From positions 992,001 through 1,056,000 of the forward strand of contig NZ_JAUSWJ010000001.1 of NCBI RefSeq assembly GCF_030815145.1: DNA of 64,000 nt, written 5' to 3'. Made by a program: the position numbers and the translations under genes. Within the stretch, counting starts at the first letter, position 1; the number at the start of each line of letters is the position of its first letter. The notes under the pieces were generated by a model, which saw only the letters and a program-made list of their open reading frames with translations, ran no database searches and was not told the origin of the DNA. The DNA comes from Kaistia geumhonensis (GTDB lineage: Bacteria > Pseudomonadota > Alphaproteobacteria > Rhizobiales > Kaistiaceae). Shown here one piece after another: positions 3,090 through 17,752 of the stretch.

Positions 3090-4130
3090 ATGACAAAGTT
3101 CAAACTGGAGTACATCTGGCTCGACGGCTACACGCCCGTGCCGAACCTGCGTGGCAAGACGCAGATCAAGGAGTTCGACGTATTCCCGACCCTCGAGGAG
3201 CTCCCGCTCTGGGGCTTCGACGGTTCCTCGACGATGCAGGCCGAAGGCCGCAGCTCCGACTGCGTGCTGAAGCCCGTCGCGATCTATCCCGACCCGGCCC
3301 GCAAGGACGGCGCCCTGGTCATGTGCGAAGTCATGATGCCCGACGGCGTCACCCCTCATCCCTCGAACGCCCGCGCGACCATCCTGGACGATTCCGGCGC
3401 CTGGTTCGGCTTCGAGCAGGAGTATTTCTTCTACAAGGACGGCCGCCCGCTGGGCTTCCCGGCCGCCGGCTATCCGGCGCCGCAGGGCCCGTACTACACG
3501 GGCGTCGGTTTCAAGAATGTGGGCGACGTCGCGCGCGAGATCGTCGAGGAGCATCTCGACCTTTGCCTCGCGGCCGGCATCAACCATGAGGGCATCAACG
3601 CCGAAGTGGCGAAGGGCCAGTGGGAATTCCAGATTTTCGGCAAGGGCTCCAAGAAGGCCGCTGACGAAGTCTGGATGGCGCGCTACCTGCTGCTGCGCCT
3701 GACCGAGAAGTACGGCGTCGACATCGAGTTCCACTGCAAGCCGCTCGGCGACACCGACTGGAACGGCTCGGGCATGCACTGCAACTTCTCGACCGCCTAT
3801 ATGCGCGAAGTTGGCGGCAAGGACTATTTTGAGAAGCTCATGGCGGCGTTCGACAAGAACCTTCAGGAGCATATCGCCGTCTATGGACCGGACAACCATC
3901 TGCGTCTGACCGGCAAGCACGAGACGGCGCCGTGGAACAAGTTCTCCTATGGCGTGGCTGACCGTGGCGCATCCATCCGCGTGCCGCACTCGTTCGTCCG
4001 CAACGGCTACAAGGGCTATCTCGAGGATCGCCGCCCGAACTCCCAGGGCGACCCCTACCAGATCGCCTCGCGCGTGCTGAAGACGATCGCCGAGGTTCCC
4101 GTGGAAGGCAGCGCTTCGGCCGCCGCCTGA
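3090..4130 (+). CDS. glnII: Glutamine synthetase II (eukaryote-type GSII)
   Basis: GSII makes glutamine from glutamate, ammonia and ATP in the cytoplasm. The 346-residue length fits GSII rather than the roughly 470-residue GSI encoded by glnA. Visible signatures are LEYIWLDGY at the start, WGFDGSST near residues 42-49, the ATP-binding NHEGINAEVAKGQWEFQIF stretch near residue 165 and the GKHETAPWNKFSYGVADRGASIRVP block near residue 275. It is divergent from a gstI-like gene and preceded by a sigma-54 promoter, as in rhizobia, where GSII supplements GSI under nitrogen limitation. The Shine-Dalgarno is weak (GAGAG), which would suit translational control. A terminator follows at 4154. Confidence 0.97.
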   Translation: MTKFKLEYIWLDGYTPVPNLRGKTQIKEFDVFPTLEELPLWGFDGSSTMQAEGRSSDCVLKPVAIYPDPARKDGALVMCEVMMPDGVTPHPSNARATILDDSGAWFGFEQEYFFYKDGRPLGFPAAGYPAPQGPYYTGVGFKNVGDVAREIVEEHLDLCLAAGINHEGINAEVAKGQWEFQIFGKGSKKAADEVWMARYLLLRLTEKYGVDIEFHCKPLGDTDWNGSGMHCNFSTAYMREVGGKDYFEKLMAAFDKNLQEHIAVYGPDNHLRLTGKHETAPWNKFSYGVADRGASIRVPHSFVRNGYKGYLEDRRPNSQGDPYQIASRVLKTIAEVPVEGSASAAA

Positions 4131-4153
4131 TCCTGAGCAAGCTGGATACGATG

Positions 4154-4182
4154 ACGGCGCGGAGACCACTCCGCGCCGTTTT
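4154..4182 (+). terminator. Terminator after glnII
   Basis: An 11-bp stem (ACGGCGCGGAG, loop ACCA, CTCCGCGCCGT) is followed by a short T run, 24 bases after the glnII stop codon. It lies between convergent genes. Confidence 0.8.
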
Positions 4183-4200
4183 CATTGACGGGATCGTCGA

Positions 4201-4611
4201 TCAGGTGCCGCCGATCGACCACATGACGCCGAAGCTGTCGCGCAGCTGACCATAGCGGTCGCCCCAGAACATCGTCTGAAGGGGGTTCACGACGGTCAGG
4301 CCCGCGCCTTCCGCCCGGCGCCACCACATGTCGGGATCAGCGACCTGCAGATGCAGCGTGTAGCCCTGCGCCGCCTGCTTCTCGTGGCCATATTCGGGAT
4401 AGAAGTCGCACAGCATCACCGAGCCGCCATGGATGCGCAGATGGATGTGCATCGTCCGGCCCTTCTCGTCGAGCGGCTGCCGGGCGAGTTCCTCGGCGCC
4501 GAAGGCCCGCTTGTAGAGTTCGGCCGCCGCCACGGCGCCGTCGACACTGAGATAGGGCACGACCCCGGTGATGGTGTTGTTCGCCTGCTGGTGGACTGCC
4601 GTCTCGCTCAT
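4201..4611 (-). CDS. VOC-family (glyoxalase-like, PhnB type) protein
   Basis: This 136-residue protein has the PhnB-like vicinal-oxygen-chelate layout: TGVVPYLSVDGAVAAAELYKRAFGAEE at the start, MHIHLRIHGGSVMLCDFYPE in the middle and FWGDRYGQLRDSFGVMWSI at the end. The ATG at 4611 has GGAGGAACGGGA before it, so the longer upstream frame is not used. It lies just after the ECF42 sigma gene and has its own TGTCGGA-N16-CGTC promoter at 4668-4694. VOC proteins are frequent partners of ECF42 factors. The catalytic role, if any, is unknown. Confidence 0.88.
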   Translation of the reverse strand: MSETAVHQQANNTITGVVPYLSVDGAVAAAELYKRAFGAEELARQPLDEKGRTMHIHLRIHGGSVMLCDFYPEYGHEKQAAQGYTLHLQVADPDMWWRRAEGAGLTVVNPLQTMFWGDRYGQLRDSFGVMWSIGGT

Positions 4612-4667
4612 TCCCGTTCCTCCTTCGTGCAAAGCGGCAGCGCAGCTGCCTGACCCGACACAGCAAG

Positions 4668-4694
4668 GACGTTCGGGCGCCCGACGTTCCGACA
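4668..4694 (-). promoter_or_regulatory. ECF42-type promoter upstream of the VOC gene
   Basis: On the minus strand this reads TGTCGGA, 16 bases, CGTC. The same hexamer core, spacing and -10 element occur at three other sites in the window, all before genes linked to ECF42. Transcription would start near 4661, 50 bases before the VOC start codon. Confidence 0.75.
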
Positions 4695-4700
4695 GACCGC

Positions 4701-5972
4701 TCAAATCGCCGAAGCGGCGATGGCTCTCGGCGCCGCTTCGGCGGCGAGACGATCGAGATGGGAGCGGATATGGGCCGCCTCGGCAGGCGTTCGCGCCAGC
4801 GCGATCGCGCGATCGAAGGCCTGGCGCGCTTCCGCGGGTCGGCCAAGTTGCAGCAGCAGGTGACCCACCAGCCCGAAATAGTGGAAATAGCTCCCGAGCG
4901 GTCCGGCGAGCGGCTCGATCATGGCGAGTGCCGCGGCCGGTCCCGCGACCTTCGAAACCGCCACGGCCCGGTTCAGCGTCACGACCGGCGAAGGCTGGAG
5001 GTGCTCGAGCGTCGCATAGAGAAGATCGATCTGCTGCCAGTCCGTCTCCTCCGGCCGGGCGGCTCGCGCATGCAGAGCCGCGATTGCCGCCTGGATCAGA
5101 TAGGGACCGGGGCGGCGGTGGCGCATCGCCTTGTCGATGAGCGCGAGGCCCTCGGCGATCATGGCGCCGTTCCAGAGCGAGCGGTCCTGGTCGTCGAGCA
5201 GGATCAGCGCGCCGTCGGCGTCGAAGCGAGCCTCAAGCCGCGAGTGCTGAAGCAGCATCAGCGCGGCGAGGCCCATGATCTCCGGCTCGGCCGGGAAGAG
5301 CCGCAGCAGCAGCCGGGCGAGGCGGATCGCCTCATCGCAGAGCCGCGTCCGCGCGCCATCCACTGACGGTGCCGAATAGCCCTCGTTGAAGACGAGATAG
5401 ATCATCGTCGCCACGGCGGCGAGGCGCTCTGCCCGCTCGACGGGACCCGGCGTCTCGAACGGCACGCCCGCCTTGGCGATCCGGCTCTTGGCGCGCGTGA
5501 TGCGCTGCTCCATCGCCGCCTCGCTGACGAGGAAGGCTCGGGCGATCTGCGGCACCGTGAGGCCGGATACGATCCGGAGCGCAAGGGCGATCTGCTGCGT
5601 CGCCGAGAGGTCGGGATGGCAGCAGATGAACAGGAGGCGCAGGATGTCGTCGCGGTAATGGGCATCGTCGAGGCGGTCGGCAAGGCTGGCCTCGGCATCG
5701 CCGAGATCCGACAGCGCCGCCTCGTCGGGAAGTTCGGCCTCGCGGCTGCGCCGGCGCACCACATCGATCGCCGCGTTGCGCCCGACGAAAATCAGCCAGG
5801 CGGTGGGGTCCCGCGGCGGCCCCTTCTGCGGCCAGAGCGCCAGCGCCTTGAGGCAGGCTTCCTGAAACGCCTCCTCGGCGATGTCGAGATCGCGGAAATA
5901 GCGCAGCAGCGCGCTGATCGCCTTCGGCCGCGCCCCGGCGACGGCCGCCTCGATCCAGGCGATGTCGGTCAT
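4701..5972 (-). CDS. ECF42-group RNA polymerase sigma factor with long C-terminal extension
   Basis: This 423-residue extracytoplasmic-function sigma factor has a sigma-2 region at about 1-80 (RDLDIAEEAFQEACLKALALWP, PTAWLIFVGRNAAIDVVRR) and a sigma-4 region at about 105-165 (LSATQQIALALRIVSGLTVPQIARAFLVSEAAMEQRITRAKSRI). A helical, TPR-like extension of roughly 250 residues follows. That extension and an adjacent DGPF/YciI gene define the ECF42 group, which has no classical anti-sigma factor. The start overlaps the stop of the DGPF gene by four bases (ATGA), so the two are translationally coupled. Four matching promoters in the window suggest autoregulation and control of the VOC, SRPBCC and second DGPF genes. 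The inducing signal is unknown. Confidence 0.93.
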   Translation of the reverse strand: MTDIAWIEAAVAGARPKAISALLRYFRDLDIAEEAFQEACLKALALWPQKGPPRDPTAWLIFVGRNAAIDVVRRRSREAELPDEAALSDLGDAEASLADRLDDAHYRDDILRLLFICCHPDLSATQQIALALRIVSGLTVPQIARAFLVSEAAMEQRITRAKSRIAKAGVPFETPGPVERAERLAAVATMIYLVFNEGYSAPSVDGARTRLCDEAIRLARLLLRLFPAEPEIMGLAALMLLQHSRLEARFDADGALILLDDQDRSLWNGAMIAEGLALIDKAMRHRRPGPYLIQAAIAALHARAARPEETDWQQIDLLYATLEHLQPSPVVTLNRAVAVSKVAGPAAALAMIEPLAGPLGSYFHYFGLVGHLLLQLGRPAEARQAFDRAIALARTPAEAAHIRSHLDRLAAEAAPRAIAASAI

Positions 5973-6340
5973 GGCTTGCCCCCGCCCGGATGATAGACGC
6001 CGACCGGTCGGACTTCATAGGCGCCGCCGGGATTGGCCGCCGCGAGATCGCGCGTGACGTCGAGAATTTCTTCCAGTGAGCCGCCCTCGACGAGATAGAA
6101 GCCGAGAAGCTGCTCCTTCGTTTCGGCAAAAGGCCCATCGAGCACAAGCGGCGGGTCCTGATCCTTGCGCAGCGTCGTGGCGGCCGTCGTCGGCAGCAGG
6201 CGAGCCACCGGACCGAGCCGTCCGTCCCGCGCCAGCTTTTCGTGGACCACGGCGAGGCGCGCCATCACCGCGTCGTCTTCCTCCTTGGTCCAGGAGCCGA
6301 CGACGTCTTCCGAGTGGTAGCAAAGGATGGCGTAGAGCAT
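5969..6340 (-). CDS. DGPF-domain (YCII-related) protein, ECF42 partner
   Basis: This 123-residue protein carries the hallmark VLDGPFAETKEQLLGFYLVE segment (DGPF motif) of YCII-related proteins, which are the conserved genomic partners of ECF42 sigma factors. It is the first gene of a two-gene operon and overlaps the sigma gene by four bases. The start at 6340 is set by GGGAGAAAGCC just upstream, and the ECF42 promoter at 6364-6390 leaves a leader of only about 17 bases. The biochemical role of DGPF proteins is not established. A second one is encoded at 17333. Confidence 0.92.
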   Translation of the reverse strand: MLYAILCYHSEDVVGSWTKEEDDAVMARLAVVHEKLARDGRLGPVARLLPTTAATTLRKDQDPPLVLDGPFAETKEQLLGFYLVEGGSLEEILDVTRDLAAANPGGAYEVRPVGVYHPGGGKP

Positions 6341-6363
6341 GGCTTTCTCCCTGGTGCCTTGAA

Positions 6364-6390
6364 GACGAGCGGCGGCGCCCGGTTCCGACA
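6364..6390 (-). promoter_or_regulatory. ECF42-type promoter of the DGPF-sigma operon
   Basis: The minus strand reads TGTCGGA, 16 bases, CGTC, ending 23 bases before the DGPF start codon. It faces away from a second copy at 6441. If used by the sigma factor it transcribes, this is positive autoregulation. Confidence 0.75.
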
Positions 6391-6440
6391 CGGACTGCGC
6401 TCCGGACCATGCCAACCCGGTTTCGATTTTCGTGCAAGCA

Positions 6441-6467
6441 TGTCGGACAAGGGACCGAGCAAACGTC
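6441..6467 (+). promoter_or_regulatory. ECF42-type promoter of the SRPBCC gene
   Basis: TGTCGGA, 16 bases, CGTC on the plus strand, 32 bases before the SRPBCC start codon and back to back with the promoter at 6364. Confidence 0.75.
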
Positions 6468-6499
6468 CTCAGGCCGGTTCACGCAACAGGGAGACCGCC

Positions 6500-7018
6500 A
6501 TGACCGCCGACACTTCGATCGCCGAGAGCCAGACCACCGACAGCGCGGCCGAGGGGAGCCCCATCGCCGAGCGCGAACTCGTCATCACGCGGCTGATCGA
6601 TGCTCCGCGCACAGCGCTCTATCGCTGCTGGACCGAGGCCGAGCTTTTGAGGAAATGGTTCGCGCCGCAGCCCTGGACGACACCCGTCGCCGAACTCGAT
6701 GTCAGGCCCGGCGGTTCGTGCCGCGTCGTGATGCGCAGCCCTGAAGGCGAGGACTTTCCCAATCCGGGTGTCTATCTCGATGTGGTGCCGAACGAAAAGC
6801 TCGTCTTGACCGACGCTTTCGCCGAAGCCTGGGAGCCCTCGACCAAGGCCTTCATGGTCGCCACCGTCACCTTCGCCGACGAAGACGGCAAGACCCGCTA
6901 CACGGCCCGCGTGCAGCACTGGTCGGCGGAAGACCGCGCGGCCCATGAGAGCATGGGCTTCCACGAAGGCTGGGGACGCTGCGCAGACCAGTTGGCGGCG
7001 CTTGCCGCCACCCTCTGA
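6500..7018 (+). CDS. SRPBCC-family (AHSA1-like) protein
   Basis: This 172-residue protein has the START-like AHSA1 pattern: RELVITRLIDAPRTALYRCWTEAELLRKWFAP, then ELDVRPGGSCRVVMRSPEG, and a C-terminal FHEGWGRCADQLAALAA. These domains bind hydrophobic ligands in a deep cavity. The ATG at 6500 follows CAGGGAGACCGCC; longer upstream frames lack support and would cross the promoter. It is divergent from the ECF42 operon and has its own matching promoter, so it is probably a regulon member. The ligand is unknown. Confidence 0.9.
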   Translation: MTADTSIAESQTTDSAAEGSPIAERELVITRLIDAPRTALYRCWTEAELLRKWFAPQPWTTPVAELDVRPGGSCRVVMRSPEGEDFPNPGVYLDVVPNEKLVLTDAFAEAWEPSTKAFMVATVTFADEDGKTRYTARVQHWSAEDRAAHESMGFHEGWGRCADQLAALAATL

Positions 7019-7029
7019 CCACCCAACGG

Positions 7030-7070
7030 CGAGGACAAGGCGCCGCCCGACCGGTGGCGCCTTGTCCTCG
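7030..7070. terminator. Bidirectional hairpin between convergent genes
   Basis: A perfect 15-bp stem (CGAGGACAAGGCGCC with its complement, 11-base loop) lies between the SRPBCC gene and the convergent gene at 7078. It has no T run in either direction, so its terminator role is only likely. Confidence 0.55.
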
Positions 7071-7077
7071 AAAACCC

Positions 7078-7515
7078 TTAGGGGCAGACGTCCCAGAAGC
7101 CGCTCGTCTTGGCCGGGGTCGTGTAATACCAGCAATAGCCCGCCTTGGGCGGCTGGCCGGCGACCGAGACCGCGGCCGCACCGGCGATGAAGCCGATCGC
7201 CACGCCGGCCGCCACCGCGCCGCCAGGCGGCCAGTAGTAGCGGCCCGGATTGACCACCACGACACCAGGCGGACGATAGACCGGATGTCGGTAGACCGGC
7301 GCCGCGCGATAGACTGGCGCGGCCGGACGATAGGCCGGGCGCGTGGTGGCGCCAGCGGCGCATCCGCGCGGGCCGCAACCCGCCGCCGCGCAGCCGCGCG
7401 GGCCACAGGCCCCGGCCGCGCGCCGTGCCTCGGCAGGCGTCACCTGCGCAAACGGCGCGATGACTGTCGCGGCCGTACCGGCCACGAGAACCAGTGTCTT
7501 CAGGAAGTGTTTCAT
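7078..7515 (-). CDS. Secreted protein with CGPRGC repeats and Pro/Tyr-rich linker
   Basis: I do not recognise a family. The 145-residue product starts with a signal peptide (MKHFLKTLVLVAGTAATVIA, then a likely cleavage near AEA). It continues with two CGPRGCAA-type repeats (about residues 36-53), a RPAYRPAAPVYRAAPVYRHPVYRPPG segment with repeated PVYR units (about 59-85), a short hydrophobic stretch GGAVAAGVAIGFIAGAAAVSVAG (about 97-119) and a Cys/aromatic tail (YCWYYTTP...FWDVCP). Paired cysteines suggest disulfides or metal binding in the envelope. It stands alone between convergent and divergent neighbours. Confidence 0.85.
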   Translation of the reverse strand: MKHFLKTLVLVAGTAATVIAPFAQVTPAEARRAAGACGPRGCAAAGCGPRGCAAGATTRPAYRPAAPVYRAAPVYRHPVYRPPGVVVVNPGRYYWPPGGAVAAGVAIGFIAGAAAVSVAGQPPKAGYCWYYTTPAKTSGFWDVCP

Positions 7516-7679
7516 GTCTCTGCCTTCCCCCGTTGGCTAATCGAAGCTTATCACCACCACGCCGTCCGCCGCAGCGTCGTCGTCAACCGACCCCAGGCAA
7601 GGGCGGAATGGAGGCTGAGACTCGCCAGCGGATAAAATGCCTCTAGAATTGTGGCGCCTCTTCCGACGGAGCCCGATGC

Positions 7680-8138
7680 GTGAGCGAGACTGAAACAGAA
7701 TCCCCTTCCCTGCCCGCCAAGCTGGGGCGCGCAGTCCAGCCGACGCCCGACCGGTCTGCGATCCCCGTCATCCGCACCATCGCGATGCCGGCCGACACGA
7801 ATCCCGCCGGCGACATCTTCGGTGGCTGGCTCATGTCGCAGATGGATCTCGGCGCGAGCACGATCGCGACACGGCGCGCGCGCGGACGCACCGTGACCGC
7901 GGCCGTCGAGGCGATGTCGTTCATCTCCCCCGTCAAGGTCGGCGATGAGGTCACCATCTATGGCCGCATCGTCTCGACCGGCCGTACCTCGATCCGCGTC
8001 TTCGTCGAGGCCTGGCGCCGCAGCCGGGAAAGCGACGACGTCGCGCAGGTTACGCATGCGACTTTCACCTTCGTCGCCATCGATGCCGAGCGTAAGCCGC
8101 GGCTTCTTCCGGCGCTCGAGGCGGGTGTGGACGGCTGA
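7680..8138 (+). CDS. Acyl-CoA thioesterase (YciA-like hotdog)
   Basis: This 152-residue single-hotdog protein matches acyl-CoA thioesterases of the YciA/BACH type, which release free fatty acids from CoA. Key segments are RTIAMPADTNPAGDIFGGWLMSQMD (active-site Asp/Asn region and helix) and AVEAMSFISPVKVGDEVTIYGRIV. The start is a GTG at 7680 preceded by CGGAG; it overlaps an out-of-frame ATG. There is no obvious operon partner. Confidence 0.9.
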   Translation: MSETETESPSLPAKLGRAVQPTPDRSAIPVIRTIAMPADTNPAGDIFGGWLMSQMDLGASTIATRRARGRTVTAAVEAMSFISPVKVGDEVTIYGRIVSTGRTSIRVFVEAWRRSRESDDVAQVTHATFTFVAIDAERKPRLLPALEAGVDG

Positions 8139-17253: not shown

Positions 17254-17280
17254 TGTCGGATCGCGACGCGCCCATTCGTC
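17254..17280 (+). promoter_or_regulatory. ECF42-type promoter of the second DGPF gene
   Basis: TGTCGGA, 16 bases, CGTC, identical in both elements and spacing to the three copies around the sigma gene 11 kb away. The start codon is 53 bases downstream. Confidence 0.75.
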
Positions 17281-17332: not shown

Positions 17333-17752
17333 ATGCGCGTGATGGTGATCGTCAAGGCGACGAAGGACAGCGAGGCCGGCGCCATGCCGTCGCCTGAACT
17401 GATCGAGGCGATGGGTCGCTTCAACACGGAGCTGATCACGGCCGGGATCATGAAGGCCGGCGACGGGCTGAAGCCGTCCTCCTTCGGCAAGCGCGTCGCC
17501 TTCGACGGCGCCAGCCGCCTGGTCATTGATGGCCCCTTCGCCGAGACCAAGGAGCTCATCGCGGGCTATTGGCTCTGGGAAGTGGCCGACATGGACGAGG
17601 CGGTGGCTTGGGTGAAGCGCTGCCCCAATCCGATGCCGGGACCGAGCGAGATCGAGATTCGCCCGCTGATCTCGATGGAAGATTTCGCGGAAGTCATGAC
17701 GGAGGAAGGCGCCGCCATCCACGAAGGCAACCGCATCCGCCTCGAGGGCTGA
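17333..17752 (+). CDS. DGPF-domain (YCII-related) protein, second copy
   Basis: This 139-residue protein has the DGPF signature (LVIDGPFAETKELIAGYWLWEV) and an otherwise typical YCII-related fold with RVMVIVKATKDSEAG at the start. GGGAGACAAGCA precedes the ATG. It is a stand-alone gene, but its promoter matches those of the ECF42 locus, so it is likely controlled by the sigma factor at 4701-5972. The two DGPF proteins differ clearly outside the motif. Confidence 0.93.
   Translation: MRVMVIVKATKDSEAGAMPSPELIEAMGRFNTELITAGIMKAGDGLKPSSFGKRVAFDGASRLVIDGPFAETKELIAGYWLWEVADMDEAVAWVKRCPNPMPGPSEIEIRPLISMEDFAEVMTEEGAAIHEGNRIRLEG

Follow-up and report, generated by a model that had tools for sequence, protein, structure and literature searches.

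A predicted ECF42 sigma factor regulon of the RpoE10 subgroup in Kaistia geumhonensis, and a possible link between residue 155 and the sixth base of the -35 box

The window, by which we mean the whole stretch of Kaistia geumhonensis DNA analysed (64,000 nucleotides; NZ_JAUSWJ010000001.1, positions 992,001 to 1,056,000), contains on its minus strand a two-gene operon made up of a YCII/DGPF protein gene (5969-6340) and, with a 4-base overlap, a sigma factor gene (4701-5972, 423 aa). The gene directly upstream of the sigma gene was assigned to the YCII family by PF03795 (64.7 bits) and by its sequence DGPFAETKE. The sigma factor carries the sigma-70 regions 2 and 4 of the ECF factors (PF04542, 42.7 bits, cut-off 24; PF08281, 35.4 bits, cut-off 25.7; TIGR02937, 47.2 bits, cut-off 42.9) and a C-terminal extension, about 200 residues long in ECF42, which matched PF20239 (DUF6596) with 120.1 bits (cut-off 27). 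The TPR matches reached 20-21 bits, below their cut-off, so the TPR part is weak. Note that ECF42 activity is reported to depend on the C-terminal extension, as cited in PMC8999054. Glu155, a residue of the sigma4 recognition helix, is encoded at 5508-5510 (minus strand); it is proposed below, from covariation and an alignment with solved sigma factors, to read base 6 of the -35 box. The operon is flanked by a VOC/glyoxalase-like gene (4201-4611, minus strand; PF00903) and a SRPBCC/AHSA1 gene (6500-7018, plus strand; PF08327), and a second YCII/DGPF protein gene lies at 17333-17752 (plus strand; PF03795). No anti-sigma gene was found in the operon, nor among the six regional proteins scanned with Pfam, the ORF at 7078-7515 lying outside that scan. 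An Rfam scan of 4000-8000 returned nothing at gathering score. The closest named relatives of the sigma protein (80-96% identical) come from an uncultured 'Bosea' bin, Mesorhizobium sp. BR1-1-16, Kaistia soli and Kaistia dalseonensis.

A preliminary description of this DNA had reported three copies of TGTCGGA-N16-CGTC (that is, TGTCGG-N17-CGTC with A as the seventh base) around the sigma gene, and a pattern search of the window recovered all three: at 4668-4694 (minus strand) before the VOC gene, at 6364-6390 (minus strand) before the YCII-sigma operon and at 6441-6467 (plus strand) before the SRPBCC gene, the identity of these genes being confirmed by the Pfam matches. The distance to the start codon, given there as 17-57 bases, was close to the 56, 23 and 32 bases measured from CGTC to the ATG, respectively. 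Moreover, a fourth copy was present at 17254-17280 (plus strand), 52 bases from the ATG of the second YCII gene. When the window was shuffled by dinucleotides, 0.08 copies were expected, and four were reached in none of 100 shuffles.

Searched as a single contig of 4,587,821 bases, the genome gave six exact matches. Besides the four in the window, these were a copy upstream of a DUF899 gene (L005) and another upstream of an SDR gene (L006). This total is not above chance, since the window shuffle rate, scaled up, gives about 5.7 copies, and a total that matches the composition was dropped as evidence; the reversed pattern, used as a control, matched once. With no clear excess in number, the evidence is the placement, and here the genome-wide check proposed in the preliminary description gave a non-random result. 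Under a mechanical rule that required an ATG 18-62 bases downstream, letters resembling a ribosome-binding site and an ORF no shorter than 100 aa, all six exact sites passed, as did 4 of the 19 TGTCGG-N17-CGTC sites with another seventh base. In the six exact sites the ATG, with a ribosome-binding site, follows after 23-56 bases. None of 30 sites passed when the spacer was one base longer (TGTCGG-N18-CGTC, the first 30 of 96 along the chromosome; Fisher test for 6/6 vs 0/30, 5e-7), and none of the six TGTCGA-N17-CGTC matches in the genome was start-proximal. Since TGTCGG-N18-CGTC occurs 96 times, perhaps through a codon-phase effect, which is our guess, the raw count of 25 for TGTCGG-N17-CGTC carries little meaning. 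The four additional passing sites precede YCII (L013), DUF1428 (L015), SMP-30 (L016) and MFS (L020) genes; at L016 the rule took a shorter overlapping frame, and the SMP-30 ATG lies 48 bases on. The base after TGTCGG is A in six of the ten start-proximal sites of the genome. With six exact sites and four start-proximal ones differing in the seventh base, the regulon looks wider than the three units originally proposed.

The sites are also present in relatives. In four congeners with an orthologue of the sigma factor, TGTCGG-N16-W-CGTC occurs 40 times, and 30 of these sites were read as loci. At 13 of these 30 the gene that follows is an orthologue (71-97% identical) of a target in this genome: the YCII-sigma operon (three), the SDR, DUF899 and SMP-30 genes (two each), and the VOC gene, the SRPBCC gene and two other YCII genes (one each). 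The remaining sites lie before more VOC-like genes and various other genes, and several resemble chance sites inside genes; no DUF1428 or MFS orthologue with a site was seen among the 30. The exact pattern TGTCGGA-N16-CGTC occurs 5, 6, 7, 8 and 10 times in the five congeners with an orthologue, and 0, 0, 1, 3, 3, 3, 3, 3 and 4 times in the nine without one (14 genomes; exact one-sided p 0.0005, reversed control p 0.29). A family-wide comparison of 28 genomes gave p 0.00016 (reversed control p 0.10); these comparisons cover 14 and 28 out of 101 genomes, with the other 73 outside them. A TGTCGG site was found at 76 of 80 named loci, all of the Glu type; since some of them apparently duplicate genomes used in the locus sets below, they are not an independent set. 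In 143 sites near these 80 loci the base after TGTCGG is A in 38% and C in 39%, and A was therefore rejected as a core base.

The promoter of the ECF42 group is TGTCGA / CG(A/T)C, unlike the TGTCGG -35 box found here. The Streptomyces venezuelae ECF42 factors (Liu 2018; Wu 2019) have DGPF neighbours. They also share with the window factor the ECF42 architecture with a C-terminal TPR extension, as cited in PMC8999054. A closer counterpart is RpoE10 (SMc01150) of Sinorhizobium meliloti, which is classed as ECF42 in PMC6180224; a table in that paper places TGTCGG-N17-CGTC before SMb20475, SMc01151 and SMc01149, with A after TGTCGG in one of the three. Since RpoE10, ECF42 according to its authors, shows TGTCGG too, we take the TGTCGA motif to be an average over the group, not a defining feature. 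Here, TGTCGG-N17-CGTC was found at the sigma factor's own operon and at the SRPBCC gene. RpoE10 of S. meliloti Ak57 is 74.6% identical to the window's sigma factor over 97%, with the same recognition helix AMEQRITRAK, and its locus likewise has a YCII gene upstream of the sigma gene and an adjacent SRPBCC gene. The Ak57 sites before these YCII and SRPBCC genes are identical in their letters to those tabled in PMC6180224. The window factor differs from RpoE10 in its six exact sites, two of which belong to DUF899 and SDR genes, and in the divergent orientation of the SRPBCC gene. What had been called an exact ECF42 promoter is the form of one subgroup, in which the seventh base A is dispensable. 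The proposal of one regulon read by the ECF42-type factor was supported by the placement, the presence of sites beside orthologues, the excess in congeners and the agreement of boxes and spacing with the RpoE10 promoters.

Over-expression of RpoE10 raised six genes, four of them at least 2-fold, and RpoE10-dependent induction was described for two of the three motif-bearing S. meliloti operons (PMC6180224). SMc01151, the first gene of the rpoE10 operon, is reported there as not raised, and positive autoregulation of the sigma operon, asserted in the preliminary description, is better worded as a prediction. In a limited text search, PMC6180224 was the only source found to give TGTCGG promoters for an ECF42 factor. 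Its text also places Pseudomonas putida ECF-10, which has a similar gene context, in ECF42; ECF-10 has been linked to antibiotic stress and biofilm. According to a 2024 toolbox paper (PMC10880074), the ECF26 switch alone differed between wild-type and ECF-free S. meliloti among those heterologous switches whose group also contains native factors, and native RpoE10 was thus without visible effect on the Xanthomonas ECF42 promoter. This fits subgroup-specific promoters, although RpoE10 may also have been inactive.

We then compared the promoter letters of different ECF42 factors, using a first set of 80 loci of relatives (most about 10 kb), taken from 84 matches outside this genome (G037:C6, G092, G093 and G094:C3 were left out), together with the two loci of this genome. 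Clades A and B were defined by score cut-offs against this genome's two factors, clade C being the remainder. Near the 21 clade-A loci (the window factor and its orthologues) TGTCGG-N17-CGTC occurred 39 times, compared with 0-6 times at each of eleven other spacings, and TGTCGA-N17-CGTC once. Near the 38 clade-C loci TGTCGA-N17-CGTC occurred 33 times (1-6 at other spacings) and TGTCGG-N17-CGTC once. The 23 clade-B loci, which include the genome's second factor, had no clear motif peak: at the fixed spacing we counted TGTCGA-CGAC 6, TGTCGA-CGTC 7, TGTCGG-CGTC 2 and TGTCGG-CGAC 7, and at other spacings TGTCGA-CGAC, TGTCGA-CGTC and TGTCGG-CGAC reached 8, 7 and 5, respectively. Four of the seven TGTCGG-CGAC matches are dyad-like TGTCGA...CGAC sites read in reverse; the Ala-type locus L162, for its part, does carry its own TGTCGG...CGAC site. 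The recognition helix reads AMEQRITRAK in 20 of the 21 clade-A factors and TMEQRITRAK in the remaining one, all with Glu155; in clades B and C residue 155 is Ala, Gly or Ser in 61 of 61.

The operon of the second factor carries TGTCGAA-N16-CGACA (L028:3373-3400, near 1293.4 kb), with mutually inverted boxes (TGTCG...CGACA), and similar sites were seen in L156, L159 and L164. The L028 site could be either a promoter or a dyad operator.

The prediction that Glu155 goes with TGTCGG, and Ala, Gly or Ser with TGTCGA, was recorded before 80 new loci were fetched. These were 80 of 123 listed matches, 11 of the 123 having been used before. Sixty belong to other orders in the class or phylum; the 20 belonging to the same order were picked by eye, with a preference for likely orthologues. 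The Glu155-TGTCGG prediction held in the new loci. At the fixed spacing, the 21 Glu loci gave TGTCGG-CGTC 32, TGTCGA-CGTC 2, TGTCGG-CGAC 1 and TGTCGA-CGAC 1, and the 53 Ala/Gly/Ser loci gave 3, 25, 1 and 20, respectively. The other six comprised four Leu loci, each with a TGTCGA site, one Gln locus (TGTCGG) and one Tyr locus with neither.

Both sets and seven plasmid loci (taken from 60 listed rows out of 250 records) were then used for a count restricted to the region upstream of the operon, in which 168 of 169 loci could be placed (L270 was dropped). The 42 Glu loci had TGTCGG in 35 cases, TGTCGA in none and neither in seven. The 122 Ala/Gly/Ser/Leu loci had TGTCGA-CG(T/A)C in 37 cases (one with an additional, odd TGTCGG...CGGC), TGTCGA...CGGC in one, TGTCGT in three and no site in 81. 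This strict pattern finds nothing at two thirds of the non-Glu loci, and the rule therefore concerns the letter used when a site is found. The two Gln loci were split, L202 having TGTCGG and L285 TGTCGA, and the single Thr and Tyr loci had no site in this region. Gln155 may or may not be an equivalent of Glu155, the letters of L202 and L285 pointing in opposite directions. If the count is extended to the whole locus, TGTCGG is scored for two non-Glu loci, one of the Ala type and one of the Gly type, and two of the seven Glu loci that had neither site upstream, L140 (clade A) and L246 (a distant Glu factor), have no recognisable site at all. Both factor types are encoded in 14 first-set genomes. 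In the five of these, including the present one, where each type has a site, the sites differ as expected, the differing letter being T, not A, in one of the five.

Several further observations came from these loci. A third letter at that -35 position, in TGTCGT-N17-CGAC, was seen upstream of the operon at three loci that are neighbours in the tree (L129, L259 and L261), all with Ala155. In the test set and the plasmid loci, the -10 box is CGTC near the Glu-type factors, while Ala-type factors from other orders and phyla often have CGAC nearby, a difference that may reflect a covarying sigma2 residue. Many Klebsiella/Escherichia plasmid records matched the DUF6596 part only (query 227-353), over a short stretch annotated as DUF6596, annotated as hypothetical protein or left unannotated. 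Finally, CP090106.1 (L279), which is 3.7 Mb long and entitled S. meliloti plasmid pSymB, has dnaA beside the ECF42 operon and looks like a mistitled chromosome.

How far does residue 155 itself account for the base? In a FastTree phylogeny built with the helix columns removed, 42 of the 45 Glu/Gln factors fall into one clade (support 100), so the change of residue and base is close to one event, and species were no longer counted as independent support. There are three independent pairs, typically with two agreeing, none opposed and one not differing (median sign test p 0.5). Residue 155 had the highest mutual information with the TGTCGG vs TGTCGA type of all 423 positions (0.904 bits), followed by R107 (0.893 bits) and A188 (0.888 bits). 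The contact residues Gln156, Arg157 and Arg160 show little or no variation in either type; Thr159 also differs between them. The sigma4 segment alone matched nothing useful among solved structures by sequence. A profile of 19 ECF42 proteins aligned the helix with VRSRIFRA of 6in7_B, an RNA polymerase sigma-H factor that we take to be a sigma-E relative, with residue 155 on the first Arg; the sigma-E/-35 complex 2h27 was also matched. By this alignment residue 155 would correspond to the -35-contacting sigma-E residue R171. The sigma-E contacts are with the template-strand G at -31 for R171, the G at -35 for R176 and position -34 for S172 (PMC6713349). If Arg160 is assumed to read the G in second place in TGTCGG, an offset of four bases would bring residue 155 to base pair 6 of the -35 box. 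In a chemically sensible scheme, the template C would donate a hydrogen bond to Glu155, and with Ala there would be room for the thymine methyl.

On balance, we lean slightly towards the idea that position 155 (Glu versus Ala/Gly/Ser/Leu) sets the sixth -35 base (G versus A) across ECF42 and helps to separate paralogous regulons within a genome. The main competitor, that Glu155 and TGTCGG are linked by shared ancestry only and that other clade-specific residues set the base, is a serious if lesser possibility: the Glu/Gln clade is nearly one event, with few independent pairs; R107 and A188 separate the types almost equally well; and a Streptomyces factor with Gln155 has a TGTCGA site. It has to be set against the first rank of residue 155 in mutual information, its alignment with R171, and a separate Gln155 factor (L202) that has TGTCGG where its nearest tree row, with Ala155, has TGTCGA. 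From the sequences compared, the residue-base rule appears well supported and phylogenetically shallow. An earlier residue-base analysis of ECF promoter specificity (Todor 2020) reportedly links sigma4 residues to -35 bases. The promoter type was already known from RpoE10; the link between residue 155 and base 6 is put forward here and may already be in print.

Taken as a whole, the explanation that an ECF42 factor of the RpoE10 subgroup uses the sites as its promoters, with Glu155 as the proposed reader of base pair 6 of the -35 box, is one in which we have good confidence. The sites would be the -35 and -10 elements (TGTCGG, 17 bases, CGTC) for the factor encoded at 4701-5972, which we infer to bind them and, with RNA polymerase, to start transcription at its own YCII-sigma operon. 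Further targets would be the flanking VOC and SRPBCC genes, the second YCII gene 11 kb away and the distant DUF899 and SDR genes; the additional YCII and SMP-30 genes are probably targets, and the DUF1428 and MFS genes possibly so. Glu155 would read a G:C pair at the sixth -35 position, where the Ala/Gly/Ser/Leu subgroups mostly use A:T.

It is improbable that the genome's second ECF42-type factor (at 1294 kb), or both factors together, read the sites. This other factor is also a DUF6596 sigma, and both lie behind a YCII gene; however, its own operon has TGTCGAA-N16-CGAC and not TGTCGG-CGTC, a pattern that stays at background near the 23 clade-B loci (2, compared with 0-9 at other spacings). 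Moreover, TGTCGGA sites are fewer in congeners that lack a Glu-type factor, and the sites of the two types differ in the five genomes where both have one upstream. Slightly less probable still is that the sites bind another regulator, a repressor or activator, and are not sigma factor promoters. In favour of this reading, three sites cluster at one locus, and the S. meliloti YCII-sigma motif overlaps the putative start site in an operon given as unresponsive to RpoE10 (PMC6180224). Yet the fixed spacing, the orientation toward the gene and the similar ATG distances fit promoter boxes, and in S. meliloti two of the three counterparts respond to RpoE10 and are located upstream of mapped starts (PMC6180224). 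Chance, in the form of common boxes coinciding in a G+C-rich genome, can practically be dismissed: the six genome copies are about what composition gives, but the placement (6/6 vs 0/30), the four window copies where 0.08 were expected and the recurrence of the sites next to orthologues across many genomes, some of them from other orders, argue against it. The three identical sites are very probably the sigma factor's own promoters.

The sites in the window are very probably a real ECF42 promoter set of the RpoE10 subgroup, ordinary in kind. They provide a predicted regulon, open to testing, for a widespread and poorly understood group of sigma factors, and add DUF899, SDR and more YCII and VOC genes as candidate targets to those known for RpoE10. 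If true, the prediction of one base from one residue could help in inferring regulons from sequence or in designing orthogonal switches.
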